The notes: generated by a model not told the origin, from the sequence alone. A stretch of DNA of 57,715 bases from Candidatus Elulimicrobium sp. (GCA_020720365.1 DYOU01000007.1:1-57715), one strand, 5' to 3'; shown: positions 16,888-50,964, numbered from the stretch's first letter. Program-made: numbers and translations.

Positions 16888-16888
16888 A

Positions 16889-18799: not shown

Positions 18800-18825
18800 C
18801 GGAGGGTGCTTGAGGGCACCCTCCG
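18800..18825 (+). other. strong intergenic stem-loop downstream of the pilin gene, no T-tract
   Basis: Perfect 10-bp stem CGGAGGGTGC / GCACCCTCCG, 6-nt loop TTGAGG. Confidence 0.75.
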
Positions 18826-18866
18826 GACAGCGGGAAAGATCATTAACCTACTGAAAAGAAGACGAT

Positions 18867-20995: not shown

Positions 20996-21462
20996 AAATA
21001 ATGACTTGGTTAACCATAGGGTTTGTGACACTCTCGCTGACAGGCTGTGAACAGATGCGCGACGTTCAGCGGCTGTTTAAAAAGAGTAAGGTGCCGCAGG
21101 CGGAGGCTCAAACAGCAGCTGTTATTAATCATGAGGATGAAGTGCGGCTGGCCGAGGTAGTCCTGAAGCCAAAACAGCGCAAGCTTTCGGTCAAATCAGA
21201 TCCGTTTCAGCCTTTGGCTTTGTCCGGTCTTGGCGCCGAGAACGGGCTGGGTGGTGTTGGGGCTGTTCTTTCGACGATCAAATATGTCGGGATGATGAAG
21301 ATGGGAACGGAATCCTCGGTCCTGATCCAGACAGCTAAAGGCAGTAATGTTTACAAGCTTAACGATGAAGTTGAGTATATGCGCATTAGCGAGATTAACG
21401 CTGAATTTATAACTCTCACAAAAGATGGAAAAACGTTCCAACTAAAAAGAGGTGCACCATGA
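20992..21462 (+). CDS. pilP: type IV pilus assembly lipoprotein PilP-like
   Basis: Signal peptide and lipobox 'LTGC'; 'VGMMKMGTESSVLIQTAKGSNVYKLNDEVEYMRISEINAEFITLTKDGK'. Position between pilO and pilQ. Confidence 0.8.
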   Translation: MKIMTWLTIGFVTLSLTGCEQMRDVQRLFKKSKVPQAEAQTAAVINHEDEVRLAEVVLKPKQRKLSVKSDPFQPLALSGLGAENGLGGVGAVLSTIKYVGMMKMGTESSVLIQTAKGSNVYKLNDEVEYMRISEINAEFITLTKDGKTFQLKRGAP

Positions 21463-22874: not shown

Positions 22875-22894
22875 GAGAAGAGCTAATTCGTACG

Positions 22895-22939
22895 GCAGAC
22901 AGGGGAGGATCCCGCTATTTTGATCTGCCCCTGATCTGC
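22895..22939 (+). other. intergenic stem-loop between pilQ and the large prepilin gene
   Basis: GCAGA-CAGGGG pairs with CCCCTG-a-TCTGC (one bulge), 22-nt loop. Confidence 0.55.
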
Positions 22940-22955
22940 ATTGAGAGGAGAGAGT

Positions 22956-25091
22956 ATGATAAACAGACTTAAGCGTCAGGGCGGGTTTACATTGATCGAG
23001 CTGATGGTCAGTTCAGTCATCGTTACTATTTTAGGTATGACATCGTGGTATGCCGCGAATACCCTGATCGTGGCGAATGATATTGTTCATAACAGTATCA
23101 CGGCTGTTAATCTTCAGCGCAAGAGCCAGGAAGAAATTCGCCGGGTGATCCGTTCGGGGAATAATTATGATATTTTAGGGACTTTGGGCATATGTGATTT
23201 TTCCGCAGTCAATATCTGCGGCTTTGAGGGGGATCTCTCAACTTCTTTCCCTGGGTTTTCCCGTACAATGACAGTTACGAATGAAGCCGGTAGTTCGGAG
23301 TTTAAACGTGTAGTGGTGACGGTGACCTGGAATGAGCTTGGGAAAATAAGGATCTCTAATACGGTAGAGTTGTTATCACGCCCGCCGCAGCCTATGCCGG
23401 GGAATTTGATCGGAAAAGTCACGGATAGTACAACGGGCAATAATCTGGGAAGTGTGGATATCACGGCTTCTTTGGTTTCAGCGCCCGGAACGTTACAGGT
23501 AGTGTCAACATTGCAGGATATTTTAGGTAAGCTGGCGAATTATACGTTTGCGAATGCGGCGGGACAGTCTCAGATGACTACAGGTAACTGGAATATTTCG
23601 GCGAAACGTAATGGGTATCAGAATTATGTTGGCCCGGCGCCGGTAGTGATCAGCGCTAATATAGAGACTCAATTTGACTTTGCCATGATCCCTGTGCCTG
23701 ACAATGCGACGATCACGGTTACTTGGCCATCTGGCGTTGGTCTGCCATATACGCCTAAAGGAACGGTTGCTCTTTACAAGAAGGGCTCTCTTCAGACGCA
23801 ATCGAACGCTAATTTTACAGGAAGCCATATTTTCACGGTTCAGTTTATAGATACCAATCCGCAGTGCTTTACTGTCGCAACAAATACGGACATCTGGAAA
23901 AACGGTTTTGTCGGAAACTTTACATGTTCTTCACCGCCGATGACCCAGGATTCGCGCGGCTGGTCCTCTGCTGTTGTTCGGGCGGATAATAGTCTGGTAT
24001 GCGGGAATCCCTGGGTTGGGAATGCGACTTCAGACAGGATCTGTGTTAATCCGGGAGATGCGATCACGGTGGCTCTTCCGGTGGTTCCGGTCGCGACAAC
24101 CAATCTGACGGGAGAGGTCAAGGATTCAAATAATCTTGCGATCGCGGGGGCCAGTCTGGTTATTCGCTGGCATGATAACGGGGAGTATCCGTGGACAGGG
24201 AAAGCCTTAGCGGTGACAACGGATTCGGCGGGGAAGTATGCCGCAACAGTTCCTGCGGAGCAGAACTTTTTTAATGATGCAAATGGTTTTTATATCAGAA
24301 CATACGCCAGTGCCTCTGTTCCGATGTTACAGTGTTGTAATATAAGCGGGACGGTGCAAGCTTCACCAGGTATGATTCGTGTTGGCCCTTTGACCGCGGG
24401 AGTGAATAAGGTACAGGATTATGTGATTGATACAACGCCTCAAACGCAAACATGTGGAGGGGCGAACGGGCTGGTGATAGACGGCAGTACTCTGAGCGGG
24501 CTGTCTGGCGCAAAAGTTGGGCTGTCAGGGTCGAAGGATACAGATGCGATCGGTAATTATCAATTCCAGTGCCCTGATTTAACTTTGATGAGTGTTCCGG
24601 CAAAGGCGTATTATCTGAATACGACCAAGGCAAATTATTATGATTTCACGACGAAAGGCAATAATTATTATACTCAGGTCGGTACGGGGAAAGTGATCGT
24701 TAATAAGGATGTTGGCAACATTATGCCTAATGTCGAGCTATGGCCAAAAGGTGTTGGGACACTGAATGTGAATGTTGTGGGGCCAGGTGGTTCTTCTCAG
24801 ATTCAGGGCGCAACGGTCAGCCTGGTTGGAACAGCTTCGCCAGCTCCGGTATTGAGTGCCCCAGCGCCGATAGTGACAGGTGCCAATGGCCTGGCGGTAT
24901 TCAATGCTCTTCTGGAAACATGGCCGCCGCCGTCTGTCGTGGGGAATGTGAAATATCAACAGACCGTGAGTGATTATACGATCACAGTGAACCATCCGTC
25001 GTATGAGACTGCGGTTGTCGGGAATGTGAAGCTTGATCGGAATCAAACACTCACACAAACGATCAACTTGATCTTGAAAGCTGGTATGTGA
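22956..25091 (+). CDS. very large minor prepilin with several carboxypeptidase-regulatory-like (Ig-like) domains
   Basis: 'QGGFTLIELMVSSVIVTILGMTSWYAANTLI' class-III signal; repeated modules such as 'GKVTDSTTGNNLGSVDI', 'GEVKDSNNLAIAGASLVI...TTDSAGKYAATV'. Confidence 0.85.
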   Translation: MINRLKRQGGFTLIELMVSSVIVTILGMTSWYAANTLIVANDIVHNSITAVNLQRKSQEEIRRVIRSGNNYDILGTLGICDFSAVNICGFEGDLSTSFPGFSRTMTVTNEAGSSEFKRVVVTVTWNELGKIRISNTVELLSRPPQPMPGNLIGKVTDSTTGNNLGSVDITASLVSAPGTLQVVSTLQDILGKLANYTFANAAGQSQMTTGNWNISAKRNGYQNYVGPAPVVISANIETQFDFAMIPVPDNATITVTWPSGVGLPYTPKGTVALYKKGSLQTQSNANFTGSHIFTVQFIDTNPQCFTVATNTDIWKNGFVGNFTCSSPPMTQDSRGWSSAVVRADNSLVCGNPWVGNATSDRICVNPGDAITVALPVVPVATTNLTGEVKDSNNLAIAGASLVIRWHDNGEYPWTGKALAVTTDSAGKYAATVPAEQNFFNDANGFYIRTYASASVPMLQCCNISGTVQASPGMIRVGPLTAGVNKVQDYVIDTTPQTQTCGGANGLVIDGSTLSGLSGAKVGLSGSKDTDAIGNYQFQCPDLTLMSVPAKAYYLNTTKANYYDFTTKGNNYYTQVGTGKVIVNKDVGNIMPNVELWPKGVGTLNVNVVGPGGSSQIQGATVSLVGTASPAPVLSAPAPIVTGANGLAVFNALLETWPPPSVVGNVKYQQTVSDYTITVNHPSYETAVVGNVKLDRNQTLTQTINLILKAGM

Positions 25092-25555
25092 TGAGACGAC
25101 CGGCCTCTGGTTTTACGTTGGTGGAGTTGTTGACCGTGGTAGTGATCCTCGGGATACTGATCTCGTTCTTTTATACGACATTCTTTTCCAGTTGGGCAGA
25201 GATGGATAATTACGCGACACGCTCAAACCTGTGGCAGGATATGAACAGGGTGATGGATAAGGTGACCGTGCAGGCGCGTCAAGCCAAGGGTATTACTGTC
25301 GCGTCAGATGGCAGGTCAGTGGTGCTCGTTGATTCGTTTGGTTCTAATTTTGCTACATTTGCTTTCAATGTGGCAGGAGAGCTGACTCTGACACAGCCAG
25401 GTTCAGTGGAACTTCTGACAGATCGGGTTGATGTGGGTTTGTCATCGTTCAGCAAGAATAGTGAAGCTTTAGTGGTAAAAATGGTTTTGGCGGATATGCT
25501 AGCTATGAGGAGGGTTCAAATTGAGACAACAACAGAAGTATTCCCTCGGAATTAA
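25091..25555 (+). CDS. prepilin (PilW/GspJ-like minor pilin)
   Basis: 'MRRPASGFTLVELLTVVVILGILISFFYTTFFSSWAEMDNY'; TGATG overlap with the upstream stop. Confidence 0.85.
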   Translation: MRRPASGFTLVELLTVVVILGILISFFYTTFFSSWAEMDNYATRSNLWQDMNRVMDKVTVQARQAKGITVASDGRSVVLVDSFGSNFATFAFNVAGELTLTQPGSVELLTDRVDVGLSSFSKNSEALVVKMVLADMLAMRRVQIETTTEVFPRN

Positions 25556-26744
25556 TAACAAGGGCGTTACCTTGCTGGCCAGTGTTGTAATGACGGTCTT
25601 CCTGGGCCTTATGATCGGAGTTGCTTTCCGTGGCATGAATATGGAAATGCAGGAAGGTGCCTCGAGAGAGGTTTCTCAGGAGTCGTTTAATAATGCCGAA
25701 GCCGGACTGGAATATGCGATCTTTATGCTCCGGCAGGATGAAACCTGGAGTCCTGCAGCGCCATTATCCGTTCAGGTTCTTATTGACCCGTTAGCTCCGG
25801 TCGTCCCTGCGAACATTCAGGGGACCTATACCGTCAGTGTTGCGCCTGCGCTGCCATTTAATGGTTGGCCTTCGGTGTGGGTAACCTCTCAAGGAGTTGA
25901 TCGTGATGGAAAAAATCCCAGGACTATTCTTGCCCAGGTGATCGTTCAAAGCCCTGCAAAGTTTCTGGTGTCGTCTTTGGGTGATATCACAATTCGCAGT
26001 GGTGCTAATTATGGCGGAGACTTTTTGGCGCGTGACATTGATTTTCAGGTTGATACATCCCTGGCTTTAGGTTCTTCTCAGCGTAATATCAATATTATCG
26101 GAAAAGTTTCCTATATGCGCAATTTGTTAAGTAATGTGAATCTGATGAATCCGGCATTGGGTGTTTCGATCACGGGCGGTACGCAGTCATCCCCCGGAGT
26201 TACATTTACAGGGATCGATAAAACGTATTATAAATTACTTGCGCAAACGCAAGGCAGTTACCACGGTGCCAGTAAGACCATATCCGGAAGTCTGGATTGT
26301 ACAACTCTGGGGGCAGTGAATGGAGTGGTCTTTGTAGAGGGTGATCTGCATATTTCAGGAACTTTTGCAGAGAGCCTGACGTTTATTGCAACGGGCGATA
26401 TTTATATAGATGATGATCTTCAGAGGGATGCAACAGTGATCCCTGCACCCCAGGTCGGGCTTTTGGCGGTTAATAATGTGATTATTCCCAGTACAGCTCC
26501 AGCGACCCTTGATCTGGAAGCGTTTGTTCTGGCAGATGGAGGGATTTTTACGGCTGACAAGACGGTAGCCAAGGGAACATTGAATTTTACCGGAGCGATC
26601 GCTGTGCGCGGACGCGTAGGGGGATCAGCGATTGACCTGAACGCTTTTGCGACGCGTAATTACAACTATAATGCGGCGTTCGTTAATAATACGATACCCT
26701 TTCTCTCCTCTATGGCCAATGTTGTTGGCTGGAGCGAGATTTGA
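25521..26744 (+). CDS. PilX-like minor pilin / pilus assembly protein
   Basis: 'NNKGVTLLASVVMTVFLGLMIGVAFRGMNMEMQEGASREVSQESFNNAEAGLEYAIFML'; TTG start, overlaps previous ORF. Confidence 0.78.
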   Translation: MRQQQKYSLGINNKGVTLLASVVMTVFLGLMIGVAFRGMNMEMQEGASREVSQESFNNAEAGLEYAIFMLRQDETWSPAAPLSVQVLIDPLAPVVPANIQGTYTVSVAPALPFNGWPSVWVTSQGVDRDGKNPRTILAQVIVQSPAKFLVSSLGDITIRSGANYGGDFLARDIDFQVDTSLALGSSQRNINIIGKVSYMRNLLSNVNLMNPALGVSITGGTQSSPGVTFTGIDKTYYKLLAQTQGSYHGASKTISGSLDCTTLGAVNGVVFVEGDLHISGTFAESLTFIATGDIYIDDDLQRDATVIPAPQVGLLAVNNVIIPSTAPATLDLEAFVLADGGIFTADKTVAKGTLNFTGAIAVRGRVGGSAIDLNAFATRNYNYNAAFVNNTIPFLSSMANVVGWSEI

Positions 26745-35892: not shown

Positions 35893-37905
35893 ATGACGAT
35901 CTATTCAATGATCATTCAGAGTATGCGTTGTATTGTGGCAGGTGTATGTATGATGAGTGCGCTTGTGATGAGTATTCCCGCAAAGGGTTGGGCTGCGTCT
36001 GGGCCTTATGCGGCGATGGAGCTTCCCGTTCCTGGCCAAATGATGTCACTGAGTTCTAGCACCGATCCCGTCAGGCTTGAAGGGGTCAGGGTATACAGCC
36101 AAGAGCCTTTTCGTTTTGACTTTATTGTGAATAGAGGCCAGGCTGGTGAGGATGTTCGTCAGGAGAGCGAGCGCCTGATCCGGTATTTTCTAGCGGCCTT
36201 GACGGTTCCCGAGGAGGATCTTTGGGTCAACTTATCTCCATTTGAAGAAAACCGCATTATTCCGGAAAAGTTTGGGCAGACAGAGCTGGGCCGGGATCTC
36301 TTATCAGAAGACTATGTACTTAAACAGGTGGCTTCTTCGTTAGTCTATCCTGATGGGGCTGTGGGCAGGGTTTTTTGGAAGAAAGTGTATGCGTTAGCTG
36401 CGGAGAAGTTTGGGATTGATCGCACTGATATTCCGCTAGATGCATTAACTAAAGTATGGATCGTGCCTTCTCAAGCACTTATTTATGAAGATCCAGGAAC
36501 GTCTACGGCATATATTCTTGAATCACGTATGAAAGTGATGCTTGAGAGTGATCATCAGGCTCAAAAGGGAGGGACGGAGAATTCTTCATACATGAGTTCA
36601 GTGGAGTTGGCGAACAAAGATCCGTTGCAGGGAATATCAGAGCAGGTGATCCGTTCGGTTATTATTCCTTTGCTTGAACAAGAGGTGAATGAAGGGGCTC
36701 ATTTCAGTCGTTTACGTCAGGCGTATCAATCTTTGATCCTGGCGGCATGGTATAAACGGAAAGTGAAGGCAAGCCTTTTGGCTTCTGTCTATGTGGATCA
36801 GCGAAGGGTGAAGGGAATAGAGACCGGGGAACCTTTGGCATCGGCGAGAATTTATGAACAGTATCGTCAAGCTTTTCGGCAAGGTGTTTTTAATATTATT
36901 CGGGAAGAACGTATCGGAGAAGAGGAAGATTTTATTGCGCGTAAATATTTTTCCGGTGGGCTGGAGATGGGGGTTGATACAGTAATTCAGATTACCGGTT
37001 TTCAGGATCCAGCCATGGCAGCAGTATTTCGGGAAAGATATGCTTTGCCTGGAGGTGATCAGCGGGTGATTGTTTCGGCGGTGCTAGATCCGGAATTTGA
37101 GGGACAGAGAGAATTGATAAATAGTTCACAACCTGTTGCGGCGATTGATAATGCAATGAAGACTGTGCCGGATCTGTTTAACATGCTTTATAAAGAGGTC
37201 AGTTTTCGTCCGTTATCTCTTGCTGATGCGGAAGCATTACCGATTGAAGACAGCCTCAGCTTTGTGGATCATCCGATATTTAACCCATCAGGTGTGAGTG
37301 TGGTTGCTTTGTATGGAAGGAGTGTATTAAGAAAGACAGATGCTATCTTGCAGGGAGTGGCGATCGTCAGGCAGAGTGACTTCAGGTACAGCGTAGGACG
37401 GAATGATGTGCAAGCCTTCTTGCAGGTTTTCCGATTCGAGAAGACAGATATATTTAAAGAGGCTTTATTGGCCAGGGTTTTGAATGAATTGCGGATGGGG
37501 CGATCTAATCTGCAGGCGTGGAAGTATTTATTAGCTGTTGCCCCCGATAACAAGGAGGCTTTGGAGTTCTTTTTTAAGGCAGGGTTTGTGCTTTTGGCAA
37601 AGAAATTTGATAGTGGCTCAGAGGATCCGGACTATTATGTGATCACGGTCCAACGGGCCGAAGTTTTTGTGAAACGGGTGATGAAGAGCCGATGGTATCC
37701 GGATGATGCTCAAACCGCTAATACGGGTGGTATTGATATGCGTGATGAGCAGATGGTACTTCAGGTTCAGGGGGTTCCATCTTCTGCCGAAGTTTCAACA
37801 GCGAAATTTATTGATCCTTCCGCGTATATGAACGTTCCGGGATTCTCTGTGAGGATCATTGATTTAAAGGATTCAAAGTTCTGTCCCTTGACAGGATGTC
37901 ATTAA
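35893..37905 (+). CDS. large secreted protein of a family recalled from Omnitrophota; C-terminal region possibly GNAT-like
   Basis: Signal peptide; 'MELPVPGQMMSLSSSTDPVRLEGVRVYSQEPFRFDFIVNRG...LIRYFLAALTVPEEDLWVNLSPFEENRIIPEKFGQTELGRDLLSEDYVLKQ'; C-terminal 'NKEALEFFFKAGFVLLAKKF'. Confidence 0.6.
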   Translation: MTIYSMIIQSMRCIVAGVCMMSALVMSIPAKGWAASGPYAAMELPVPGQMMSLSSSTDPVRLEGVRVYSQEPFRFDFIVNRGQAGEDVRQESERLIRYFLAALTVPEEDLWVNLSPFEENRIIPEKFGQTELGRDLLSEDYVLKQVASSLVYPDGAVGRVFWKKVYALAAEKFGIDRTDIPLDALTKVWIVPSQALIYEDPGTSTAYILESRMKVMLESDHQAQKGGTENSSYMSSVELANKDPLQGISEQVIRSVIIPLLEQEVNEGAHFSRLRQAYQSLILAAWYKRKVKASLLASVYVDQRRVKGIETGEPLASARIYEQYRQAFRQGVFNIIREERIGEEEDFIARKYFSGGLEMGVDTVIQITGFQDPAMAAVFRERYALPGGDQRVIVSAVLDPEFEGQRELINSSQPVAAIDNAMKTVPDLFNMLYKEVSFRPLSLADAEALPIEDSLSFVDHPIFNPSGVSVVALYGRSVLRKTDAILQGVAIVRQSDFRYSVGRNDVQAFLQVFRFEKTDIFKEALLARVLNELRMGRSNLQAWKYLLAVAPDNKEALEFFFKAGFVLLAKKFDSGSEDPDYYVITVQRAEVFVKRVMKSRWYPDDAQTANTGGIDMRDEQMVLQVQGVPSSAEVSTAKFIDPSAYMNVPGFSVRIIDLKDSKFCPLTGCH

Positions 37906-37950
37906 ATGTTATACTTCGCATATCCTCTTTATTAATGTTTTTATAGATAA

Positions 37951-39318
37951 ATGACTAAAAAAACACAAACCTTTTTTCTCACCATTCTTTTATTTTTTAT
38001 ACCGCAGGCATGTTTTGCGGCGATAAGCCTAAGTGTTAATCCTGTTGATGGAAGCAACACCCTGCGTTTCAGGCCTTCTGTAGGCGGCATGGAAGATAGA
38101 AAAGAGATCCGTATTCGAGTTAATTCAACGGGAGGTACTCGTTACCAGGTTTTTCAGCGTTTAATGGAACCTCTGGTGAATGAAAAAGGTGAGACCTTGG
38201 ATATTCAGGTATTACAGACAGCGACAACCGGTAATTCGAATGCTTCCGGAACGCTGTATATGCAAAATATTGATCGGATGAGTATGGGAGAGCAGCTTTT
38301 ATATACATCAGGGCAGAATGGCGACAGTGATTCTTTTACGGTTGCTTATGCGGTTGATGCTGGAGTTGTGGATCGGAGCGGTATTTTTTGTGGTCGGGTT
38401 GTTTTTACGGTGCGGGCTATAGGAGAAGCGTCTCAGGAGCAGACATCGGTTAATATCATGATAGAAACGCTTTCTGTATGGAAAGCCGAGGTGGCCGGCG
38501 GCCGGAATAAGGGGTTGGTTCGGGTAAAAGATACAGATGTGACGGATCAGAGTGCTGATTTTGTTAAAGTATCATTTGCCGGTAGTTCTCATCAGGAAGT
38601 TCGTATTTATCAAGAGGTTTTTTCATTGCCGGAAGATGCTCAGGCCAATGAAATGAAAGAAGATGTTTTAAGGTTTTCAGTTGGAGCCAATGACGAGAAG
38701 GGTGTTCGGGCGGCAGGGGTTTCTTCGTTGGGCAGGGACAGCGTTCTTTTATATGCCGGCCAGGCTCAGGAGAATGATATCATCATCCGGTTCTTTGTGG
38801 ATCCGAAGGTTATTGCCCTTCAGGATGCAGGAACGTATTTTGGTAAGGTTAAGTATATTGTCGAGACCAATGATAAAAGGCAAGAGTTCCAGGTTGACCT
38901 GGAATGTGAGGTTCAGCCTGTTTTTACCGTTGATGTTATCCTGCCTCCGGAAGGCGTAAGTTTTAAAAATATTTTACCGAATGCACCGCCTTCGGAGCAT
39001 GAAGTTGTAGTTACAGTTCGCTCCAATCTTCATCGTCCCTATCAGATCCTGCAGGATATGCAGGCTCCGATGGTGAATGAAAAAGGCGAGGCTTTAAAGA
39101 AAGAATATTTTTCCATGAAAGTCGATCTTTCCGGGATGAAGGGCAAGACAAAGTTCACTGATTTTACGCCGATGGAAACCGGAGAATATACCATTTTCTC
39201 ATCGGATAATCAGGGCACAGCGGGTACCTTCAGGGTGATTTATCAGCTGCAGGGGTACCCTCAGATGAGCGGAGGCAATTATGCGGCTCCGATACGTTTT
39301 TCGTTGAATCAAAACTAG
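37951..39318 (+). CDS. secreted protein with three tandem fimbria-like beta domains
   Basis: Signal peptide; repeated 'YQVFQRLMEPLVNEKGETL' / 'YQILQDMQAPMVNEKGEAL' and domain-end motifs 'SGIFCGRVVF', 'AGTYFGKVKY', 'GGNYAAPIRF'. Confidence 0.65.
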   Translation: MTKKTQTFFLTILLFFIPQACFAAISLSVNPVDGSNTLRFRPSVGGMEDRKEIRIRVNSTGGTRYQVFQRLMEPLVNEKGETLDIQVLQTATTGNSNASGTLYMQNIDRMSMGEQLLYTSGQNGDSDSFTVAYAVDAGVVDRSGIFCGRVVFTVRAIGEASQEQTSVNIMIETLSVWKAEVAGGRNKGLVRVKDTDVTDQSADFVKVSFAGSSHQEVRIYQEVFSLPEDAQANEMKEDVLRFSVGANDEKGVRAAGVSSLGRDSVLLYAGQAQENDIIIRFFVDPKVIALQDAGTYFGKVKYIVETNDKRQEFQVDLECEVQPVFTVDVILPPEGVSFKNILPNAPPSEHEVVVTVRSNLHRPYQILQDMQAPMVNEKGEALKKEYFSMKVDLSGMKGKTKFTDFTPMETGEYTIFSSDNQGTAGTFRVIYQLQGYPQMSGGNYAAPIRFSLNQN

Positions 39319-39343
39319 GTTAAACAAAAAAAAGGAGAGATGC

Positions 39344-39964
39344 ATGAAAACAAGGGCAAGTGTTATGATGGCAGCGGCTATTCTGCTCGCGCAGTCTGGC
39401 TCGTTATGGGCACAAACGGTTTTTACGATCACAGCAGCAGTTCCTGCGGCTACGAGTGTAAGCATCGCAGCATCAAGTATCACAGGAACGACATGGTCGA
39501 CTGCAGGTACAGCTTTAACCTTCGGAACGTTGACGTTTGATTCCAGTATTCCTACGGGATCAACCAAACCGTTGAACATTTGGCGTGCGCCGAATTATTT
39601 TGCTATTGATATTTCCAATAATGGCGGTGGCAGCCCGAGCGCATCTTTTACTTATACGGAAGGGTCCAAACCAACAGGACAGGTGCACGGCTTGGGGTAT
39701 AAAGGTACGATCGACTTCAAGAGGGTTACAATTAATACGGCTGGTGTTACGACTGATAATGTTATCACAGGGCATACCAAAAAAGCGTTGAGGGATATCA
39801 CTGTTACAGAGAGTATTTCTTCTTCTTTGACCGCGGGTGGTTGGTTAAGGGCTTATATTGGTCTTGCGGATGGCGCGACAGGAACTCCTGGTGAGCCTTT
39901 CGGTGCTACAGACTTACAGGGTAACTATACAGGAACATTGACGATCACAGCGACAACGATCTGA
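39344..39964 (+). CDS. secreted subunit-like (fimbrial/spore-coat-U-like) protein
   Basis: Signal peptide ending LWA/Q; Thr/Ser-rich beta protein; C-terminal 'GATDLQGNYTGTLTITATTI' resembles subunit terminal strands. Confidence 0.6.
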   Translation: MKTRASVMMAAAILLAQSGSLWAQTVFTITAAVPAATSVSIAASSITGTTWSTAGTALTFGTLTFDSSIPTGSTKPLNIWRAPNYFAIDISNNGGGSPSASFTYTEGSKPTGQVHGLGYKGTIDFKRVTINTAGVTTDNVITGHTKKALRDITVTESISSSLTAGGWLRAYIGLADGATGTPGEPFGATDLQGNYTGTLTITATTI

Positions 39965-39989
39965 TTATTAATGAATATTTGATGCTGAT

Positions 39990-40790
39990 ATGAGAAAACA
40001 AATAATATTTATTATGTTTTTTTGCATCGTCCTTGCCGGACCGGCCATGGCCCAATTCTTCATAGAAGAAGGAAAGGTTGTCTTGTCCGTGTCCGGCGGG
40101 GAACGCATCAATAAATCAGTTATTATTAATAATACAACAGCCAATGATCTGGATGTGCGCGTTTATTGGGAAGATTTTCAGTATGAACCGCCTTATGATG
40201 GCTCAAAGAAGTTCTTTCCTGCCGGGACAATAGAGGGCTCTGCCAGCAGCTGGATCCAGTATGTCCCGCAAGAGTTCAGATTGCCAGCTTTTGGCAAACA
40301 AAAGATTGATTATACACTGAGTGTACCGGATGATATTCAAGGAGGGCATTATGGTGTGCTTTTCTTTGAACGTTTGGGAGATGCGGCTGAAGGCCGTGCC
40401 GCTGTCAAGATCGTAACACGCCTAGGTTGTTTGTTCTTTATTGAAGCCAAAGACAAGACCAAGAGTGCGGAGCTGCAAAACATTAAATTTGAAGGTAATG
40501 ACCTTACAGGATCTTTCGCGAATAACAGTAATGTGGTGTTGATACCTCATACGACATATTACATTATGGATGAAAGCGGACTTGTCGCTGATCGCGGAGA
40601 AGTGGCGAAACTTTATGTTACGCCTGGAGCGGTAGCCTTCTGGAGGGTTTCATTGCCGAAGGATCTGGCCGCAGGGCGATATACATTTTTCCTGAACGCA
40701 GATCTTGAAGATGGAGATCTGGTGGTCAAAGAGATCACCTTTCAAAAAGATTTATCCGGAGGCCTGGTGGTCGAAAAAGTGCAGGATTAA
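39990..40790 (+). CDS. PapD-like periplasmic chaperone candidate
   Basis: Signal peptide; 'EEGKVVLSVSGGERINKSVIINNTTANDLDVRVYWEDF', 'FRLPAFGKQKIDYTLSVPDDIQGGHYGVLFFE', then second beta domain. Confidence 0.62.
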   Translation: MRKQIIFIMFFCIVLAGPAMAQFFIEEGKVVLSVSGGERINKSVIINNTTANDLDVRVYWEDFQYEPPYDGSKKFFPAGTIEGSASSWIQYVPQEFRLPAFGKQKIDYTLSVPDDIQGGHYGVLFFERLGDAAEGRAAVKIVTRLGCLFFIEAKDKTKSAELQNIKFEGNDLTGSFANNSNVVLIPHTTYYIMDESGLVADRGEVAKLYVTPGAVAFWRVSLPKDLAAGRYTFFLNADLEDGDLVVKEITFQKDLSGGLVVEKVQD

Positions 40791-40831
40791 CCTTTGCATA
40801 ACCATCAATCCCGCTGACCGGACAACAGCTT

Positions 40832-43681
40832 ATGATCTTAAGACGAGCGTTATGTTTAATGATGGCGGCCTTTTTGATGTTATGGGCCTTTCCCTCTTTC
40901 GCTGAAGATCCGTATCTTTCCTATGAACAGTATTTGAATGAGGGTGTTCAAGCTTTTAAGAATCGCGATGATCAGGCTGCCTTGGATTATTTCCATCGGG
41001 CGCATCTTTTATATCCTTCAGCAGAAGAGCCGCTGCAATATATTAATCTGATCAAGCGTACTCAGGATGAACGGCTTCAGGTAATGGGTGTTCCTTTAGA
41101 GCCCGATCATCCAGAGGCGCGAGAAAAAGTTATCCAGGCGACTCTTGATCAGTTTGTCGGCCGTGCTCAGAAGCCATTAGCCATAACGCAACAACCTCTC
41201 CTTGAGAAAAAAGTAGAGCAGCCATTGCCTGCCAGGAAAGTGACAGCTTTGCCTGCTCTTTCCGCAACACAGGTAGTCAGTCATTCTTCTGCTATAAGAA
41301 AAACGAATGATGTGCTTTCATTGGATGATGTCGTGGCCTCCAGCCAGGACAGACCGTCGATCCGTATTGTTTTTGGTTCTTCGGTTATTGTAGAGGGAAG
41401 GAATCTGCAGCGGTTTCTGGCTGTTAATCCTGAGGCACTGAATGTTAAGCCGGCAGGGAGGGATCAGATCATTATTGAGGCTAAACATTGGGGAAGCTCA
41501 TTCTTACATATTTGGGATGAACGTGGGCGTACGACGGTGTATGTTGAGGTGATGCTTCCGGCGGCATCGAATGAATTTGTTTCTGCACAATCAGCTGCTG
41601 TGGAACATGCGCCTCCATTTCGTATGAATTATGCGTTGGATAACAGCTCTTTTTATTATGGACCGGATCTGGGTGGATTACGCCGCAGGAGTTTGAATGT
41701 TCAGGAAACGTTTGGACTGACAGGGGAGACGCCATACGGCCTTTTGGATACGTCTTTAGTTGCGACCGGATTTAATCCGGTCCTTGAGATCCCCAATTAT
41801 ACATTGGGGCTTTCGCATGTTCCGATGCCGGGGACGAGCGACCTTAATCTTCGGGTGTTTGACGGGTATCGATTCTTGTCGCCGTTGACGATGGTGGGGA
41901 CACGTTTGAAAGGAGCTTTTGCGGATGTTGTTTCTTTGAATAATATTCTGGCTGTTTCAGTCAGTCATGGGGCGCAAATGGGGTCTTTTAATTATTTACC
42001 AGGCGGCGGGTCGACAACAAAAGATTCGTTTATTGATGCGGTGCGAGTTTCACTTTTTCCGGGCAATACGACGCATGAATATTCGATCAATTTTGCGCAA
42101 GGCAGCGGCAGTGAGCGTGATGAATATTTAACAAAGAAGGTGTATTCGATCGAGGGCAGGCAGAAGTTGGGGCCTGTTGATCTGAATGCTGAGCTGGCTC
42201 GGGATGATGAGAATACTGCTTCATTGGCAGGAGCCCAATGGTTGAATGGGGCGCTCAGGCAGCGGTTGAGCTTCAGGGAGATCAACAAGGATTTTACAAC
42301 GATCGTTTCGTCTCCGTCTAATCAAGGTGAGATCGGTGGTACCTGGACGACGAGTGGAGAGTGGGACAGGCTTTCCATGGATACGTATGTTGATGTATAT
42401 AAAGACAGAATATTCCCCAATGAACAGGATCCTGAGGCGTTAAATCTTGATTCGAATGTTCATACACGGATACCATTTGGAGAAAAATATGCGGTTGATG
42501 CGGCGGTGCGGTACGTACATACGCCAGGAGAAATGTCACCGAGAAGATATGCGAGCGTTGATGGCCGTTTGACACGAGAGCTTCCGGTATGGGGAGGTCG
42601 TAAGGGAAGTGTTTATGTAGGGGGAGTGGATCAGCGAAGCCGGTTTTCGTTTGCCTCGGAATCAGAATACGACCGCGAAGCTGTTTCGGCGGGAGTTCAG
42701 GTGCCGTTGACGAGATCATTATCTGGTTATTTAAATTATGAATATTCATGGCTGCATGAAAAGTTTTCGCTTGAGGATTACAATCCTTCGGTGATGAATG
42801 CGGGGTTATCTTACAGTAAGCAGCTGACCAACAAGCTTTCAGGAAATTTAGGCTTAATGTATCGTGATGAAGAGAATGTTGAGGGGCGTAATAGTTTTTT
42901 GGCCGGGGAGGACAGTGTATCAGCCTCTGCCGGGCTATCGTATAATCCCAAGACCGATGTGAATTTTTTCTGTGATTCGCGTTTAAGGAATGTCCTGGCG
43001 CAAATTCCCGATAATCCTTCTTATAATGACCTGGATGTCCGTTTTGGTATGCGGATGGCATTCGGATTGGGCTTTTCACTGGATTCTGAAGGTATTGTGA
43101 CGGGTTTTGTCTTTAAGGATCGGGATGGGAATAAGAAATTTGATCCACAGGACACGAATGTTTTGGGAGATGAGGGGCTTGCAGGGATCAAGGTCAAGAT
43201 CGGCGATAAAGAGGCGGTGACCGATGAACGCGGTTGGTATCGACTGGCGATCCGCGGTAAAAAAGTTATCGTTACACCGGTGCTCGAGAGTTTACCGACA
43301 GGGTTTGTTTTTTCAACGCCAAGTTTCGCGAAATTGGAGCTTCGTCAGGGGCAGACCAGCCGGGTAGATTTTGGCTTAACGAGTCAATCGGGTGTGTATG
43401 GCGTGGCGTTCGTGGATCGAAATGGAAACGGAATCCCTGATCAGGGTGATCGTTTTGTGAGCCGGGTGAAAGTTCTTTTAGATGGGAAAGGGGCTCAGGT
43501 CACCGATGGCCGTGGAGCGTATTTCTTCAAGAATATCGCCAAGGGCAAGCACACGTTAACGATCGATATGAAAGATCTTCCAGCTGAGTTTATTCCGCTT
43601 GTAAAATTAAAGAATTCTGTGGATGTAGTTGAAGGAACGACCTATGTTTTTCATATTCCGTTGAAAGCCAAGGCGGAATAA
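40832..43681 (+). CDS. composite outer-membrane protein: TPR, CpaC/RcpA-type N-terminal domain, beta-barrel, SdrD-B-like domains (usher-like candidate)
   Basis: Signal peptide; 'NRDDQAALDYFHRAHLLYPSAEEPLQYI'; 'IRIVFGSSVIVEGRNLQRFLAVNPEALNVKPAGRDQIIIEAKHWGSSFLHIWDERGRTTVYVEV'; long beta-rich section; 'GFVFKDRDGNKKFDPQDTNVLGDEGLAGIKVKIGDKEAVTDERGWYRL'. Confidence 0.7.
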   Translation: MILRRALCLMMAAFLMLWAFPSFAEDPYLSYEQYLNEGVQAFKNRDDQAALDYFHRAHLLYPSAEEPLQYINLIKRTQDERLQVMGVPLEPDHPEAREKVIQATLDQFVGRAQKPLAITQQPLLEKKVEQPLPARKVTALPALSATQVVSHSSAIRKTNDVLSLDDVVASSQDRPSIRIVFGSSVIVEGRNLQRFLAVNPEALNVKPAGRDQIIIEAKHWGSSFLHIWDERGRTTVYVEVMLPAASNEFVSAQSAAVEHAPPFRMNYALDNSSFYYGPDLGGLRRRSLNVQETFGLTGETPYGLLDTSLVATGFNPVLEIPNYTLGLSHVPMPGTSDLNLRVFDGYRFLSPLTMVGTRLKGAFADVVSLNNILAVSVSHGAQMGSFNYLPGGGSTTKDSFIDAVRVSLFPGNTTHEYSINFAQGSGSERDEYLTKKVYSIEGRQKLGPVDLNAELARDDENTASLAGAQWLNGALRQRLSFREINKDFTTIVSSPSNQGEIGGTWTTSGEWDRLSMDTYVDVYKDRIFPNEQDPEALNLDSNVHTRIPFGEKYAVDAAVRYVHTPGEMSPRRYASVDGRLTRELPVWGGRKGSVYVGGVDQRSRFSFASESEYDREAVSAGVQVPLTRSLSGYLNYEYSWLHEKFSLEDYNPSVMNAGLSYSKQLTNKLSGNLGLMYRDEENVEGRNSFLAGEDSVSASAGLSYNPKTDVNFFCDSRLRNVLAQIPDNPSYNDLDVRFGMRMAFGLGFSLDSEGIVTGFVFKDRDGNKKFDPQDTNVLGDEGLAGIKVKIGDKEAVTDERGWYRLAIRGKKVIVTPVLESLPTGFVFSTPSFAKLELRQGQTSRVDFGLTSQSGVYGVAFVDRNGNGIPDQGDRFVSRVKVLLDGKGAQVTDGRGAYFFKNIAKGKHTLTIDMKDLPAEFIPLVKLKNSVDVVEGTTYVFHIPLKAKAE

Positions 43682-43686
43682 TCGTT

Positions 43687-43917
43687 TTATAAAACCACAA
43701 TAGATCTTACTGTAACCACTTCCTGATTGCGGACCATCTGCTGCTCCTGGACTATTCCTGATTCATTGAATACTTGCTGGTTTTGATCTGCCGCAGGCAT
43801 TTGAATTAAAGCAGGAACGGTAACCGATAAATTGAAGACCATGGATTCAGCCCAGGCAGAGCCCGCTTGTGCCAAGATGAGAACAGTCAGGATTGTTAAT
43901 GTCAGATGTTTTTTCAT
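43687..43917 (-). CDS. small secreted protein (76 aa), riboswitch-controlled
   Basis: Signal peptide 'MKKHLTLTILTVLILAQAGSAWAESMVFNLSVTVPA'; GGGGG RBS; riboswitch upstream. N-terminus resembles the 39344 protein ('LLAQSGSLWAQTVFTITAAVPA'). Confidence 0.78.
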   Translation of the reverse strand: MKKHLTLTILTVLILAQAGSAWAESMVFNLSVTVPALIQMPAADQNQQVFNESGIVQEQQMVRNQEVVTVRSIVVL

Positions 43918-43967: not shown

Positions 43968-43996
43968 AAAAAAGAAAGCTAGCGTGCGGTTAGCTT
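43968..43996 (-). terminator. terminator forming the riboswitch expression platform
   Basis: Minus-strand AAGCTA-ACCGCACGC-TAGCTT followed by TCTTTTTT. Confidence 0.82.
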
Positions 43997-44091
43997 CGGC
44001 AACCTGACGACCATTCCCTTATCATAATGATAAGGGGTTAGGCTCACGGCTTTGCGTCCTACTCTTTCAAGTAGTTTGCCTTTTTCGACTA
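43991..44091 (-). ncRNA. c-di-GMP-I (GEMM-I) riboswitch aptamer
   Basis: Minus-strand RNA: AGGCAAACUACUUGAAAGAGUAGGACGCAAAGCCGUGAGCCUAACCCCUUAUCAUUAUGAUAAGGGAAUGGUCGUCAGGUUGCCG. Has GGCAAAC, GAAA-tetraloop P2, GGACGCAAAGCC, CCUAA/AUGG receptor and GUUGCC closing strand. Confidence 0.94.
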
Positions 44092-44119: not shown

Positions 44120-44149
44120 AGCATAACATATTCCGGTTCGCATTGCCAA
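44120..44149 (-). promoter_or_regulatory. predicted sigma70-type promoter for the riboswitch transcript
   Basis: Minus strand TTGGCA - 18 nt - TATGCT, just upstream of the aptamer. Confidence 0.55.
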
Positions 44150-46094: not shown

Positions 46095-47018
46095 ATGAGC
46101 TCTGAGCATCGTTCCAACATTCTTCTTGAAGCTCAAACCAGTGAGCTGGAGATCGTTGAATTCTCTGTAGGGGAAGCGGTGTACGGTATTAATGTGGCCA
46201 AGGTGAAAGAGATCATTAAGGCCAGTTTAACGCTTGTTCAGGTGCCTGATGCTCATCCGTCGATTGCGGGTGCCATTAATTTGCGCGGTGCTATTATTCC
46301 AGTTGTAGACCTGTCCCATCATTTAAAGATAAAAACAATCGCAGACCTTAAAAAGAGCCGGATCATTATTGCCGAGTTTAATCGTATTGTATTGGGATTT
46401 TTAGTGAGCGGTGTGGCCCGAATTCACCGGATCTCTTGGAAATCGGTTGAAGTGCCGTCTCAAATGCTGGTTACAACGGAAGGTTATGCTTCAGGGATTG
46501 TTCGAATTGAAAAGAAAGTTATTTTTCTTCTGGATTTTGAAAAGATTGCATTCCATATTAATCCGAATGTTCATATCCTTTCTCCGAAAGGAGGGGAGTA
46601 TGGCGGGTCTTCTGTTGACCGCGGGTCAAAGCGGATCCTGGTGGTCGATGATTCGGATCTGGTGCGTAAGCTGATCGTGGGGCATTTGAATTCGGCAGGG
46701 TATCAAACGGATACCGCTACAAATGGGGTAGAGGCATTGGATAAACTACAAACCTTCGCCGGACGTTCTGATTTTACGTCGATCGATCAGTTTTATCATT
46801 TGATGGTAACGGATATTGAAATGCCTCAGATGGATGGACTTCATCTGATCAAAAAGGTGAAAGAAGATGTCAAATTGCGAAACTTGCCGTGTATTGCTTT
46901 TTCGTCAATTATGTCGAAAGAAATGATCCGTCAATGTCAGTCTTGTGGAGCTGATGGAGAAATATCCAAGCCTGAGATCGCAGAACTGGTCGGACTTGTG
47001 GATGCGAAGGCGTTATAA
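46095..47018 (+). CDS. cheV: CheV-like protein (CheW domain plus receiver domain)
   Basis: N-terminal CheW ('EIVEFSVGEAVYGINVAKVKEIIK...INLRGAIIPVVDL'), C-terminal REC ('RILVVDDSDLVRKLIVGHL...LMVTDIEMPQMDGLHLIKKVK'). Confidence 0.94.
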   Translation: MSSEHRSNILLEAQTSELEIVEFSVGEAVYGINVAKVKEIIKASLTLVQVPDAHPSIAGAINLRGAIIPVVDLSHHLKIKTIADLKKSRIIIAEFNRIVLGFLVSGVARIHRISWKSVEVPSQMLVTTEGYASGIVRIEKKVIFLLDFEKIAFHINPNVHILSPKGGEYGGSSVDRGSKRILVVDDSDLVRKLIVGHLNSAGYQTDTATNGVEALDKLQTFAGRSDFTSIDQFYHLMVTDIEMPQMDGLHLIKKVKEDVKLRNLPCIAFSSIMSKEMIRQCQSCGADGEISKPEIAELVGLVDAKAL

Positions 47019-47068
47019 ATTTTGCCTCAAATGGATTTTTTTAATAACAGATGAACAGAGGGGGTAGC

Positions 47069-48760
47069 ATGCTGGATAATATTCAAATAGGGGTAAAGCT
47101 TATCGCAGGTTTTTTGTTAGTGGCCTTGATTGCGCTTTGTGTGGGTGTCATCGGTTATTATGGAATGTCCGTTATTTCTAATCAGTTAAAGTTTGTTGGC
47201 ATTGACAAAGTTTCTGACATTGAGGCATTGGGGGATTTGAATGAACAGCAAATGGCAATACGAGTAGGAACATTGAGTGTTTATCAGTATGAATTTAAAG
47301 ACAGCGCTCAGGAAGATTTTCGCAGAATTATCGAGGCTCGTCAGGAGAGTTGGAAGATTGTTGATGATGCCTGGAAGCGGTTGATTGAAGTCCCCAGAGA
47401 CGATCAGAAGGAACGGGATTTGATCCAGCGATTAAAAGGTGAATATGAAGCGTGGCGGGCTGCTTATGTAAGGCTTGACGCGAGTATTCTTGAATTGACA
47501 TCAACCACCGCTGATAATAAAAAGGCTGTTTTTGAGAAATACCGTTTGCAGGTCAAGGAAATGATCCATTTGTCGGAGGCCATGGGGAAGACTTTGGATG
47601 AGGTAACAGTGAATAATGCAGCAGCGACAAAGAATCTGGTTGAAAAAAATCTTGCGGCGATGGTTCGGTTGAAGTTGATTCTTGTGGTTTCCATTATTAT
47701 GGGGCTATTTTTGTCAATTATGTTTGGTTTTTATTTCAGTGGATCTATTACGGGTCCTATGGCTTCGAGCGTGAGGGTGATGGAGTCAATGGCCGGTGGA
47801 GATTTAACGCAGAGGCTGGATATGAATCGTGCGGATGAAATTGGTGTGATGGCAAAAACAATGGATACTTTTTCTGACAAGTTATCCAGTATGATGGGAC
47901 AGATCAGTTTGAATGCGGATCAGCTTTTGGGGGCGACCCATGAAGTATCTTCGAGCTCTCAGCAGATCGCTGACGGGGCTCAACAGCAGTCAGCTTCGTT
48001 TGAAGAGTTGTCTTCTTCAGTACAGGCGAATGCCGAAAATGCCCGGAGTGCGAATGGGATCGCCCAGGACGCGTCCAAGGAAGCTCAGGAAGCGGGTCAG
48101 GCTATGGACAATACAGTAGAGGCTATCAGCGGTATTGAGAAGGGTTCAAAGCAGATGGCAGATGCTGTTGAATTGATCACGGATATCGCGGATCAGACGA
48201 ATCTTTTAGCGTTGAATGCGGCTATTGAAGCGGCGCGTGCCGGTGAGCATGGCAAGGGCTTCGCGGTTGTCGCGGATGAAGTCCGTCAGCTGGCTGAGCG
48301 CAGTTCTACATCGGCTAAAGAGATCCAGAATCTGATCAAGGATAATTTGAGGCAGGTTGAGAATGGTGTCAAGATCTCAAAAGAAGCCGGAGCGAAGACT
48401 AAAAATATTTCTGTCAGTATCAAGAAGATCGCTGAACAGTTGATCGCTGTAGCTAATGCTACTCAGGAGCAGGCCGCGGCCATGGAAGAAAATACATCTA
48501 TTACAGAATCCAACGCGTCTGCCGCTGAACAGCTGGCATCTGCCTCTGAACAGATGACGTCCCAGGCGGAAGGTTTGCGTAACCTTGTAGCGCAGTTCAG
48601 GACCAATTCCTCGGGTGCATCTTTTCATGCGGCTCCGGCGGTTGAAAAACGTACGAGTCATTCGACTCCTGTGAAGAAAACAGCCCCTGTGGTTAAGAAG
48701 AGCGGGAGGCCTATAGAGAGATCGGGTAGTAATAAAGAAGAAGGCTTAAGGATCGGATAA
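47069..48760 (+). CDS. methyl-accepting chemotaxis protein
   Basis: TM-sensor-TM-HAMP; hairpin tip '[39 protein letters not shown]'. ATG 47069 with GAGGGGG RBS; track start 47051. Confidence 0.97.
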
Positions 48761-48779
48761 TCGTATTGAGGGAGGGAGC

Positions 48780-49169
48780 ATGGAACGTCGTCAATACATG
48801 AGGGTAAGCGGGAAGCATCTGGTGCGGCATGAGCAGTTCACTATCCCGAGGGGTACGGAGGTTCGGGAAAACAGGGCCAAAAATATCAGTGCGAACGGAC
48901 TTTTGTTTGAGTCATCCGTAAAATATAATATGGGTGTTATTCTTCGGCTGGAGCTTCTGGTCATGGGGATTAACAAGTTCAAGACAGAATTCTATAAACA
49001 TGAACGGCTTTCTAATACAGAGCCGTTCATTGTTTTAGGGAAAGTGGTCCGTGTAGAAATGGTCTATGAGGGGCTTTATGATATTGGGGTGAGTTTAGTG
49101 GGATTGGATTATTTATTCCAGAAGGCTCTCACAAAATATATTGATCATCAATTAAATCAGAATCCCTGA
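48780..49169 (+). CDS. PilZ domain protein
   Basis: 'MERRQYMRVSGKHLVRHEQF...NRAKNISANGLLFESSVKYNMGVILRLEL'; RRxxxR and DxSxxG-like (NISANG) motif. Confidence 0.75.
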   Translation: MERRQYMRVSGKHLVRHEQFTIPRGTEVRENRAKNISANGLLFESSVKYNMGVILRLELLVMGINKFKTEFYKHERLSNTEPFIVLGKVVRVEMVYEGLYDIGVSLVGLDYLFQKALTKYIDHQLNQNP

Positions 49170-49179
49170 GGGTTGGTTT

Positions 49180-49983
49180 ATGAGTGAGCAAGCGATAGAC
49201 AAGAAAAATGGGCCGGAAGGCAGCTTTGATCGTGTTATTCAGTTGATCAGCGAGTGTGTTGTGATCAAAGCCCAGTTACAGCAGTTCATGAGTGACCTGG
49301 ATGGGGAGAAACAGAAATCACGCGCAGTCACTTTAAAAATGAACGAGATCGTTCAAGGTCTTCAGAATGTCCAGAAGGGTGTGGATATTCAAAAGATTTT
49401 AGGGCTGGTGCTGAAGGATTCGGAGGGTTTATATGAAGTCCTTCATTCAAGTCGTTTAGGACCGGTGATCGTCTCTATGGATGAAGCTGTGGCCCGCTTC
49501 AGTAAGGTAATGGGGGATCTTCAGCATGAGTTGGTGACTATGGATCTTGGGGCATCGGCTATTTCTATTATGCAGGTGCTTTTGGTCAAGATCGATGGTG
49601 AGATCTATGCTATTCCGATCGAGGCGGTGTTGGAGATATTCAAGGTGAAAAAGAATGATATTCATTCTGTAGACGGAAATGACACGGTTTCCTTGCGCGG
49701 GCATGCGTTGGGTGTGGTAAATGTCGGACAGGTTTTAGGAATGCCGAATGCCAAAACGAAAGACCTGGTAGACCGTAAGGTGGTTGTTATTACGGATTCG
49801 GCACAACAAATCGGTGTGATCGTGGATGAATTGTTGGGAGAGGAAAGTGTGGTCTTCAAGGATCTTCCTGTGCAGTTAAGGGGGATGAAAGGGCTTCGCG
49901 GGGCATCTATTTTAGGCGATGGGCGTGTGGGACTTATCATTGATTCGGCCATGCTGATCAGTATGGCTGGCGGCAAGGAGTGA
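49180..49983 (+). CDS. CheA-related protein: P3-like helix plus P5 (CheW-like) domain, without HPt or kinase domain
   Basis: N-terminal 'FDRVIQLISECVVIKAQLQQF' resembles P3; C-terminal 'MQVLLVKIDGEIYAIPIEAVLEIF...LRGMKGLRGASILGDGRVGLIIDSAML' matches the CheA P5 signature. Confidence 0.78.
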   Translation: MSEQAIDKKNGPEGSFDRVIQLISECVVIKAQLQQFMSDLDGEKQKSRAVTLKMNEIVQGLQNVQKGVDIQKILGLVLKDSEGLYEVLHSSRLGPVIVSMDEAVARFSKVMGDLQHELVTMDLGASAISIMQVLLVKIDGEIYAIPIEAVLEIFKVKKNDIHSVDGNDTVSLRGHALGVVNVGQVLGMPNAKTKDLVDRKVVVITDSAQQIGVIVDELLGEESVVFKDLPVQLRGMKGLRGASILGDGRVGLIIDSAMLISMAGGKE

Positions 49984-49985
49984 CC

Positions 49986-50489
49986 ATGGCGACAGGTATA
50001 TCAGGGGTCTCAAAAGAGAATTCGATCGAGATTGTTCAGTTCGTTTGCTTTAAATTGGCGAATGAGGAATACGGGATCGATATTAACTGTGTGCAGGAAG
50101 TCCTTCGGCCGCAACAGATCACGCCTATGCCGCAAATGCCGGATTTTGTTTTAGGTGTGATGAACATTCGAGGGATCGTTGTGCCGGTATTTGATCTGCG
50201 TAGAAAATTGCATCTGGCGATGAAAGAGCTGGATGATTACAGCCGGATCATCCTGATCCAGTTAAACGGGGTCATGGGCAGTTATCTGGTTGATGAAGTG
50301 CTGGACAACATCAAGCTGGATGGATCCAAGATCGATCCAACGCCGGATGTTAAAATGTCGATCGCCAGGGATTGTGTGCGCGGGCTGGGAATGGTGGATA
50401 AACGTATCATTGTGATCATTGATCATCAGACAGTTGATGCATCTATATTAAAAGATATTCAGGAAAAACTGGTTTCTAAGCGGGGATGA
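49986..50489 (+). CDS. cheW: CheW-like adaptor
   Basis: 'QFVCFKLANEEYGIDINCVQEVLRPQQITPMPQMPDFVLGVMNIRGIVVPVFDLRRKL'. ATG 49986 (track 49980). Confidence 0.93.
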   Translation: MATGISGVSKENSIEIVQFVCFKLANEEYGIDINCVQEVLRPQQITPMPQMPDFVLGVMNIRGIVVPVFDLRRKLHLAMKELDDYSRIILIQLNGVMGSYLVDEVLDNIKLDGSKIDPTPDVKMSIARDCVRGLGMVDKRIIVIIDHQTVDASILKDIQEKLVSKRG

Positions 50490-50493
50490 ATGT

Positions 50494-50964
50494 ATGGAAG
50501 ATCAGGACAAGTTCTTTCATCTGGTAACATTTGAAATGAACAAGGAAATGTTTGCGATCCCGATCATGAATATTCAGGAGATCATTCGCTGGACGGCCGT
50601 TGTTCCGATCCCGCAGTCTCCGGATTTCGTTGAAGGCGTGATTAATTTACGCAGTAAAGTGATCCCTGTAGTCAGTTTACAGAAGAGGTTTGCTTCCGCT
50701 TCTTTGAAAGGGGCGGTCGATGACAAGACGCGTATTGTGATCGCTGAATTTGGAGAGTTGGTCGTGGGTTTTATTGTGGACAGCGTGCACGAGGTGCTGA
50801 GGATCGATCGAAAGAATTTTGAGCCGACACCGGATATCGCTGTTGTGGCTGACCGCAGATGCGTGAAAGGGATCGTTAAGCAGGACAAAAGCATGATCAT
50901 GGTCCTTGACCTGGAGGGCATGTTCTCCAAGGACGAAGCGGATATCCTCAAAGACGCCCGTTAG
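50494..50964 (+). CDS. cheW: CheW-like adaptor
   Basis: 'HLVTFEMNKEMFAIPIMNIQEIIRWTAVVPIPQSPDFVEGVINLRSKVIPVVSLQKRF'. Confidence 0.93.
   Translation: MEDQDKFFHLVTFEMNKEMFAIPIMNIQEIIRWTAVVPIPQSPDFVEGVINLRSKVIPVVSLQKRFASASLKGAVDDKTRIVIAEFGELVVGFIVDSVHEVLRIDRKNFEPTPDIAVVADRRCVKGIVKQDKSMIMVLDLEGMFSKDEADILKDAR

Follow-up and report, generated by a model that had tools for sequence, protein, structure and literature searches.

In a 57,715-nucleotide stretch of the Candidatus Elulimicrobium sp. genome (GCA_020720365.1, DYOU01000007.1; hereafter "the window"), four co-directional genes and a convergent fifth gene with its own c-di-GMP riboswitch form a conserved cassette. We think that this cassette encodes a divergent chaperone-usher-type system, built around an usher-like protein that lacks a plug, which would assemble a fibre at the cell surface; we put the probability of this reading at roughly 0.7. 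The cassette recurs in Omnitrophota and is apparently undescribed, as a preliminary description made from the window's sequence had supposed: a literature search, in which subscription journals were thinly covered, found no description of the Omnitrophota cassette or of its relatives in Deinococcus.

A conserved gene cassette in Omnitrophota

The window belongs to a 1.9-Mb draft genome (198 contigs, 86% complete) whose relatives are Omnitrophota. Open reading frame calling confirmed the five genes as first described, each with a signal-peptide-like N-terminus. The operon (37951..43681, plus strand) begins with SEC (37951..39318; 455 residues), a secreted protein and candidate tip or minor subunit, followed by the fibre-subunit-like SUB (39344..39964; 206 residues), the periplasmic chaperone-like CHAP (39990..40790; 266 residues) and the predicted outer-membrane protein OMP (40832..43681; 949 residues). 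On the minus strand, a gene for a secreted mini-protein of 76 residues, RS76 (43687..43917), converges on the operon, leaving only 6 bp between its end and the OMP stop codon, and a c-di-GMP-I riboswitch aptamer lies upstream of it (43995..44090, minus strand; Rfam RF01051, 78.6 bits, gathering score 35). By consensus match, a promoter-like site (TTGACA-16-TATACT; 37888..37915, plus strand) is found 36 bp upstream of SEC, with 11 of 12 consensus positions matched and an extended -10 element in which TG precedes the second hexamer. Pfam chaperone and pilin models matched none of the cassette proteins, whether in the window or among their homologues, and NCBIfam returned nothing above cut-off for the window proteins. 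Directly upstream of the cassette lies a gene for a secreted protein of 670 residues (35893..37905) without a Pfam match; a homologue precedes the cassette in another locus (L038), and this protein may be a member of the same surface system.

A collection-wide scan was carried out with an alignment of CHAP, that of OMP being too diverse for scanning contigs. This revealed 46 loci, 44 of them titled Omnitrophota, Omnitrophica or Candidatus Aceula, together with one "bacterium" and one "Planctomycetales" bin. The order SEC, at least one SUB, CHAP, OMP was held in 41 of the 46, so that the synteny raised in the preliminary description extends to related genomes, and CHAP was directly followed by OMP in 45, the remaining locus stopping before OMP. 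A convergent RS homologue was present in 37 of 46 loci. The riboswitch was placed across loci with a covariance model derived from eight aptamer sequences: among the 39 loci whose downstream sequence reaches at least 900 bp, 35 have it past the OMP gene and on the other strand, a few of these scores being weak. Dozens of genomes thus share the gene order and the riboswitch position, at identities as low as about 33%, and this conservation rules out chance. Among 58 relatives searched, OMP had strong matches in about half and CHAP was found in 29, the two co-occurring; many of the 46 loci share assemblies with these relatives, so the locus and relative counts are not independent. Phylum-wide, the CHAP profile matched 143 of 392 Omnitrophota genomes, including 101 of the 255 good ones.

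Of the distant loci examined, most retain the CHAP-OMP core, and in three of them (L164, L165 and L168) two single-domain-sized proteins of about 160-180 residues stand in place of SEC. We found no CHAP relatives on viral contigs and, at E<=1e-5, no OMP relatives on plasmids. The cassette also varies in gene number. One locus (L137; PMCS01000010.1, 286-9983) is expanded, with three CHAP genes, five SUB-like genes and a same-strand, RS-like frame of 84 residues; another (L164; G089:C118:4000-23900) combines two usher-like OMP genes with subunit-like proteins of about 170-190 residues in one cluster. Four further loci (L094, L100, L101 and L107) have two or three copies of the subunit gene, which in L100 precede SEC. 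A secretin proposed upstream in L134 proved to be a coiled coil.

Among plasmids, convincing CHAP relatives were confined to Deinococcus, where three cassettes (L141, L142 and L143) line up a subunit-like gene, a gene homologous to CHAP (HMM E 2e-24 to 6e-19; hhalign probability 99.7) and one for a large protein containing SdrD_B/CarboxypepD_reg domains. In the D. deserti cassette (L143), the latter two genes lie at 8001-8771 and 8773-11292. These genes are annotated as hypothetical or carboxypeptidase-regulatory-like. The large proteins have Ig-like N-terminal domains where OMP has TPR and secretin-type domains, and their similarity to it lies mostly in the C-terminal domains; none of the three matched Pfam Usher, and one gave a chance-level match (E 0.27) to CooC_C, the C-terminal domain of CS1-type ushers. 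No RS gene was found in the Deinococcus cassettes.

The outer-membrane protein resembles an usher without a plug

Above Pfam gathering scores, OMP contains only SdrD_B and the CpaC-type domain T2SS-T3SS_pil_N. To the latter (PF13629) belongs the secretin-type N-domain that the preliminary description had read in the protein (residues 160-241; 41309..41554, plus strand), which is present in 24 of 26 homologues. An AlphaFold model made from 41 sequences (mean pLDDT 84.9) orders the protein as N-terminal helices, a disordered linker, the secretin-type beta domain, a predicted barrel of about 26 strands (residues 264-762; 41621..43117, plus strand) and a pair of beta-sandwich domains of SdrD_B/CarboxypepD_reg type (residues 780-949; 43169..43678, plus strand). 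The TPR is weak by sequence; the corresponding segment is helical in the AF2 model (residues 27-109; 40910..41158, plus strand), and its family profile matches TPR structures. The domain set proposed at the outset for this protein (TPR, CpaC-type domain, barrel and SdrD_B) is therefore borne out.

When the OMP model was compared with 350,542 PDB chains using Foldseek, the best 14 matches were all FimD or PapC (E 2.1e-18 to 4.5e-9), with porins and other barrels next, from 4e-8, leaving ushers a lead of about ten orders of magnitude. This speaks against the plain porin that the preliminary description had allowed for. Full-length FimD and PapC matches span about 800 columns. The TM-scores are low, at about 0.3 by query and mostly 0.33-0.46 by target (rmsd 12-24 A), so that the match rests on local or barrel geometry and domain order rather than on close superposition, and a likeness of predicted fold falls short of proving homology. 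Moreover, an hhalign comparison of OMP with eight E. coli K-12 ushers (score 48.4, P=2e-4) covered the barrel end and the C-terminal domains in the expected order, with maxima of 24.8 for shuffled and 27.7 for reversed controls.

Conventional profiles see none of this. PF00577 (Usher) matched none of the 58 relatives in a search that detected the E. coli positive control, it is absent from the families listed for 26 OMP members, and phmmer with the single OMP sequence found nothing in the PDB. The preliminary description had noted no FimD-type usher pattern; this holds for Pfam profiles but not for the predicted fold or the profile-profile alignment.

Although whole-protein identity drops to 31%, the OMP barrel measures 497-502 residues in all 41 homologues. 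Porins, unlike OMP, have loops of variable length. In none of the 41 is there an inter-strand barrel loop longer than 15 residues, and hence no plug-sized insertion. In ordinary ushers, the loop that joins barrel strands 6 and 7 houses an Ig-like plug (PMC4356140). Compared with FimD and PapC, OMP shares the sequence of a barrel followed by two C-terminal domains, but it has about 26-27 predicted strands rather than 24, no Ig-like plug after strand 6 and C-terminal domains of SdrD_B/CarboxypepD_reg type, at an identity of about 10-14%. The TPR and PF13629 domains occupy the place of the usher N-terminal domain, which in ushers binds chaperone-subunit complexes. PF13629 is also the N-terminal domain of the Tad secretin CpaC/RcpA; the barrel and C-terminal domains of OMP, by contrast, are not those of a secretin, and the operon bears no sign of a Tad system. 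We conclude that OMP is usher-like by predicted fold, with the plug absent. Because PF00577 goes undetected and the plug is missing, we keep OMP out of the usher family proper while proposing that it works like an usher. The fold match suggests that the system as a whole probably operates as a chaperone-usher system with a divergent usher; the preliminary description had said only that the layout resembles chaperone-usher export, which is correct for the layout but understates the likeness.

A protein that joins TPR to a barrel might instead export polysaccharide, or be an outer-membrane protein of the PEP-CTERM type, with the beta proteins of the cassette as surface or periplasmic accessories. 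An O-antigen ligase-like gene upstream of the cassette would suit such a role, as would matches to TIGR03016 (PEP-CTERM-associated outer-membrane protein) in 4 of the 41 OMP homologues (best E 2.1e-6), which in the window's OMP extend over a short stretch of the barrel only. However, polysaccharide exporters such as BcsC and PgaA have 16-strand barrels, far from the 26 or so predicted here, and in the fold search no other barrel in the PDB scores as well as the ushers. An exporter would also leave the obligatory chaperone and the multiplied subunit genes unexplained, and we regard it as unlikely.

A chaperone-like protein with candidate fibre subunits

In the case of CHAP, the nearest relative of solved structure is EcpB, the chaperone of the E. 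coli common pilus. EcpB was the best PDB match of the CHAP profile, at values that are not significant by themselves (E=0.29 with 29 sequences, 0.023 with 47), and it was reached by profiles only, phmmer with the single CHAP sequence finding nothing. An hhalign comparison with ten E. coli pilus chaperones extended over 180 columns (score 44.7, P=1.3e-5), above the maxima of the shuffled (23.1) and reversed (15.8) controls and the 32-35 scored by SEC and SUB. In this alignment, P93 of CHAP falls on EcpB Pro60 and is kept in 42 of 47 homologues. Pro60, in strand D1, is described as the sole residue invariant across the chaperone superfamily (PMC4654587). The position aligned with EcpB Arg89, the arginine of archaic and alternative chaperones, is an invariant glycine (Gly122), and other invariant residues lie elsewhere (R144, R202 and Y209). 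PapD Pfam profiles gave no match at E<=1 to the window's CHAP or to 29 members of its family. Of the earlier label "PapD-like chaperone", then, remote similarity and the conserved proline remain, while a PapD Pfam match and the arginine do not. Taken together, the profile comparisons support a relationship of CHAP to pilus chaperones, probably with two Ig-like domains.

Among the closest known arrangements is the alternative chaperone-usher system EcpABCDE of that same pilus, which shares the subunit-chaperone-usher gene logic, the conserved chaperone proline and an usher-like barrel followed by two C-terminal beta-sandwich domains. The Omnitrophota cassette differs in an OMP without a PF00577 match or plug, in TPR and secretin-type domains that replace the usher N-terminal domain, in the glycine at the position of EcpB Arg89, in having no recognised pilin family, and in an additional riboswitch-linked mini-protein.

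Among CHAP homologues, PF06030 (WxLIP_PGBD) matches 10 of 29 (best E 4.9e-5) and fn3_5 matches 19 of 29, which hints at kinship with the WxL-interacting proteins of Gram-positives. On this basis the cassette could encode a static surface complex akin to Gram-positive WxL clusters, in which CHAP, like the DUF916 WxL-interacting protein, would link surface layers and would not be recycled. The window's CHAP has no PF06030 match, however, no WxL domain was found in its partners, and its best PDB relative is a pilus chaperone. Furthermore, we know of no counterpart of the usher-like OMP in WxL clusters, and we consider a complex of this kind very improbable.

Turning to the putative clients of the chaperone, the AF2 model of SUB (pLDDT 91.9) is all-beta, with the N-terminal segment of the mature protein lying outside the sheet; this segment is placed with fair confidence and is not left floating. 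It holds the strand motif FTITAAVP (39422..39445, plus strand), a candidate donor strand whose motif occurs in 33 of 52 homologues against 0.13% in shuffles. Foldseek matches to the model are weak, none being individually significant (E 0.016-0.07), and they crowd into fibres built by strand donation: Pyrobaculum bundling pili, CS20 pili, TasA and FimG. The all-beta model and the motif would fit the description of SUB as subunit-like with a pilin-type strand, and these fibre matches point weakly the same way. In relatives, SUB is present in one to three tandem copies.

SEC is conserved, opening the operon in nearly all loci, and has no Pfam match. It contains internal repeats, and single-domain homologues in distant Omnitrophota each match one of its domains, which agrees with the three related beta domains originally read in it. 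Profiles of SEC and SUB gave only chance matches in the PDB, mostly to antibodies. A relation between SUB and SEC suggested by hhalign came down to a short common "GxYxG" strand and was discounted.

A riboswitch-linked mini-protein with a candidate donor-strand motif

The mature part of RS76 comprises about 52 residues and no Ig domain. Its homologues keep a signal peptide, the strand motif (FNLSVTVP in the window; 43813..43836, minus strand), a conserved C-terminal strand and a variable linker, and nothing else; the motif is found in 34 of 38. The preliminary description had noted that RS76 and SUB share a similar N-terminus. Since a full-length hhalign comparison (P=1.4e-8) included signal peptides, we replaced it with one of the mature parts, in which the profiles align over their first 21 columns with a score of 22.0, against 11.7 for the best of 50 shuffles. 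The common N-terminus thus survives signal-peptide removal and shuffling. In L164, a similar motif stands at the start of a full-length subunit-like protein. As RS76 has the strand motif without room for an acceptor domain, it could end or anchor a chain of subunits, and by analogy it is perhaps a chain terminator, a role demonstrated for FimI and suggested for PapH (PMC10673952). RS76 has a subunit-type donor-strand motif and would present no acceptor groove, a feature proposed for terminators. FimI and PapH, in contrast, are complete subunits with an Ig domain, which the chaperone holds, whereas RS76 is domainless and encoded by a separate, convergent riboswitch gene.

The conserved position of the aptamer would place RS76 under c-di-GMP control, in keeping with what had been proposed for this part of the system. 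Upstream of the aptamer, a consensus match identifies a promoter-like site with an extended -10 element (TTGGCA-18-TATGCT; 44120..44149, minus strand). Directly after the aptamer comes a hairpin (GAAGCTA..TAGCTTTC, followed by a T-run; 43968..43997, minus strand) that was missed by a consensus terminator scan and looks terminator-like from its sequence and segment fold. Its 5' arm overlaps the possible 3' strand of the aptamer's P1, and from this overlap with the closing stem we infer the direction of the switch in the window: it suggests an on-switch, with c-di-GMP activating RS76. Other loci show terminators or possible pairing with the ribosome site, and there is no consistent riboswitch platform across loci. 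The window's genome encodes GGDEF proteins.

In most loci no more than about 50 bp separate the end of the RS gene from the OMP stop codon, with some overlaps, and in the window no clear terminator follows RS76 directly, features that would also fit a gene acting as RNA, that is, a c-di-GMP-controlled convergent transcript antisense to the 3' end of OMP in which the 76-residue frame is incidental. We think this improbable: across 37 loci the RS protein conserves a signal peptide, the strand motif and its C-terminus, as an incidental frame would not.

Aptamers of the c-di-GMP-I class are widespread among the 58 relatives, with 1-14 copies in most of the Omnitrophota genomes that belong to this order, so only the conserved position of the aptamer, and not its presence, was counted as evidence. 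Many of the other aptamers sampled precede secreted or surface-type proteins (e.g. L174, L179, L182, L185, L186, L187 and L188), with pilin-like proteins (L182 and L187) and response regulators (L181 and L190) also represented; a surface regulon is possible. Apparent tandem aptamers precede RS in L125 (6556-6731), L121 (11979-12136) and L129 (12729-12868), the second copies being weak. The second c-di-GMP match in the genome, at 38 bits on contig C53, has trp-type genes around it and seems unrelated.

Discussion

From the cassette as a whole we infer filament formation and a chaperone's role for CHAP. In the working model, SEC, SUB and CHAP would be exported to the periplasm via the signal peptides read from their sequences, and CHAP would hold SUB and SEC, leaving their N-terminal strands free. 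CHAP-subunit complexes would then be received by OMP at its periplasmic TPR and secretin-type domains, as the position of these domains suggests, and subunits would be linked by donation of the N-terminal strand to a neighbour as they exit through the OMP pore, SEC likely serving as the tip or a minor subunit. RS76, if made, might fill the groove of the last subunit and so end or anchor the fibre. In the weakest step of the model, c-di-GMP, acting via the riboswitch, might determine how long or how numerous the fibres are. A stronger version, in which TPR and secretin-type domains gate or recruit the plugless usher of a phylum-wide chaperone-usher machinery and a dedicated donor-strand-only terminator, switched directly by a c-di-GMP riboswitch, ends fibre assembly, is speculative, and we hold it to be rather doubtful.

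Omnitrophota had no cultured isolate at the time of a 2023 survey, and host attachment or predation is suspected (PMC10066038); the survey reported type-4a and Tad pili and did not mention an usher or fimbria (PMC10066038). If our reading is true, chaperone-usher assembly would extend to Omnitrophota, and, as standard profiles miss the whole system, its distribution may far exceed what annotation indicates. A plugless usher would raise the question of how the pore is sealed, while a riboswitch-controlled, donor-strand-only terminator would tie fibre growth directly to a second messenger. Through its relatives in Deinococcus, the cassette comes within reach of tests in culturable bacteria.

Elsewhere in the window, translations reveal a type II secretion/type IV pilus-like cluster (15235..26744) with genes for a GspE/PilB-like ATPase, a PilC-like protein, a PilQ-like secretin and several pseudopilins. 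Near the cassette, a chemotaxis-type run (46095..50964), likewise read from translations, encodes CheW-like proteins and a methyl-accepting protein and includes a PilZ-like protein of 129 residues (48780..49169).
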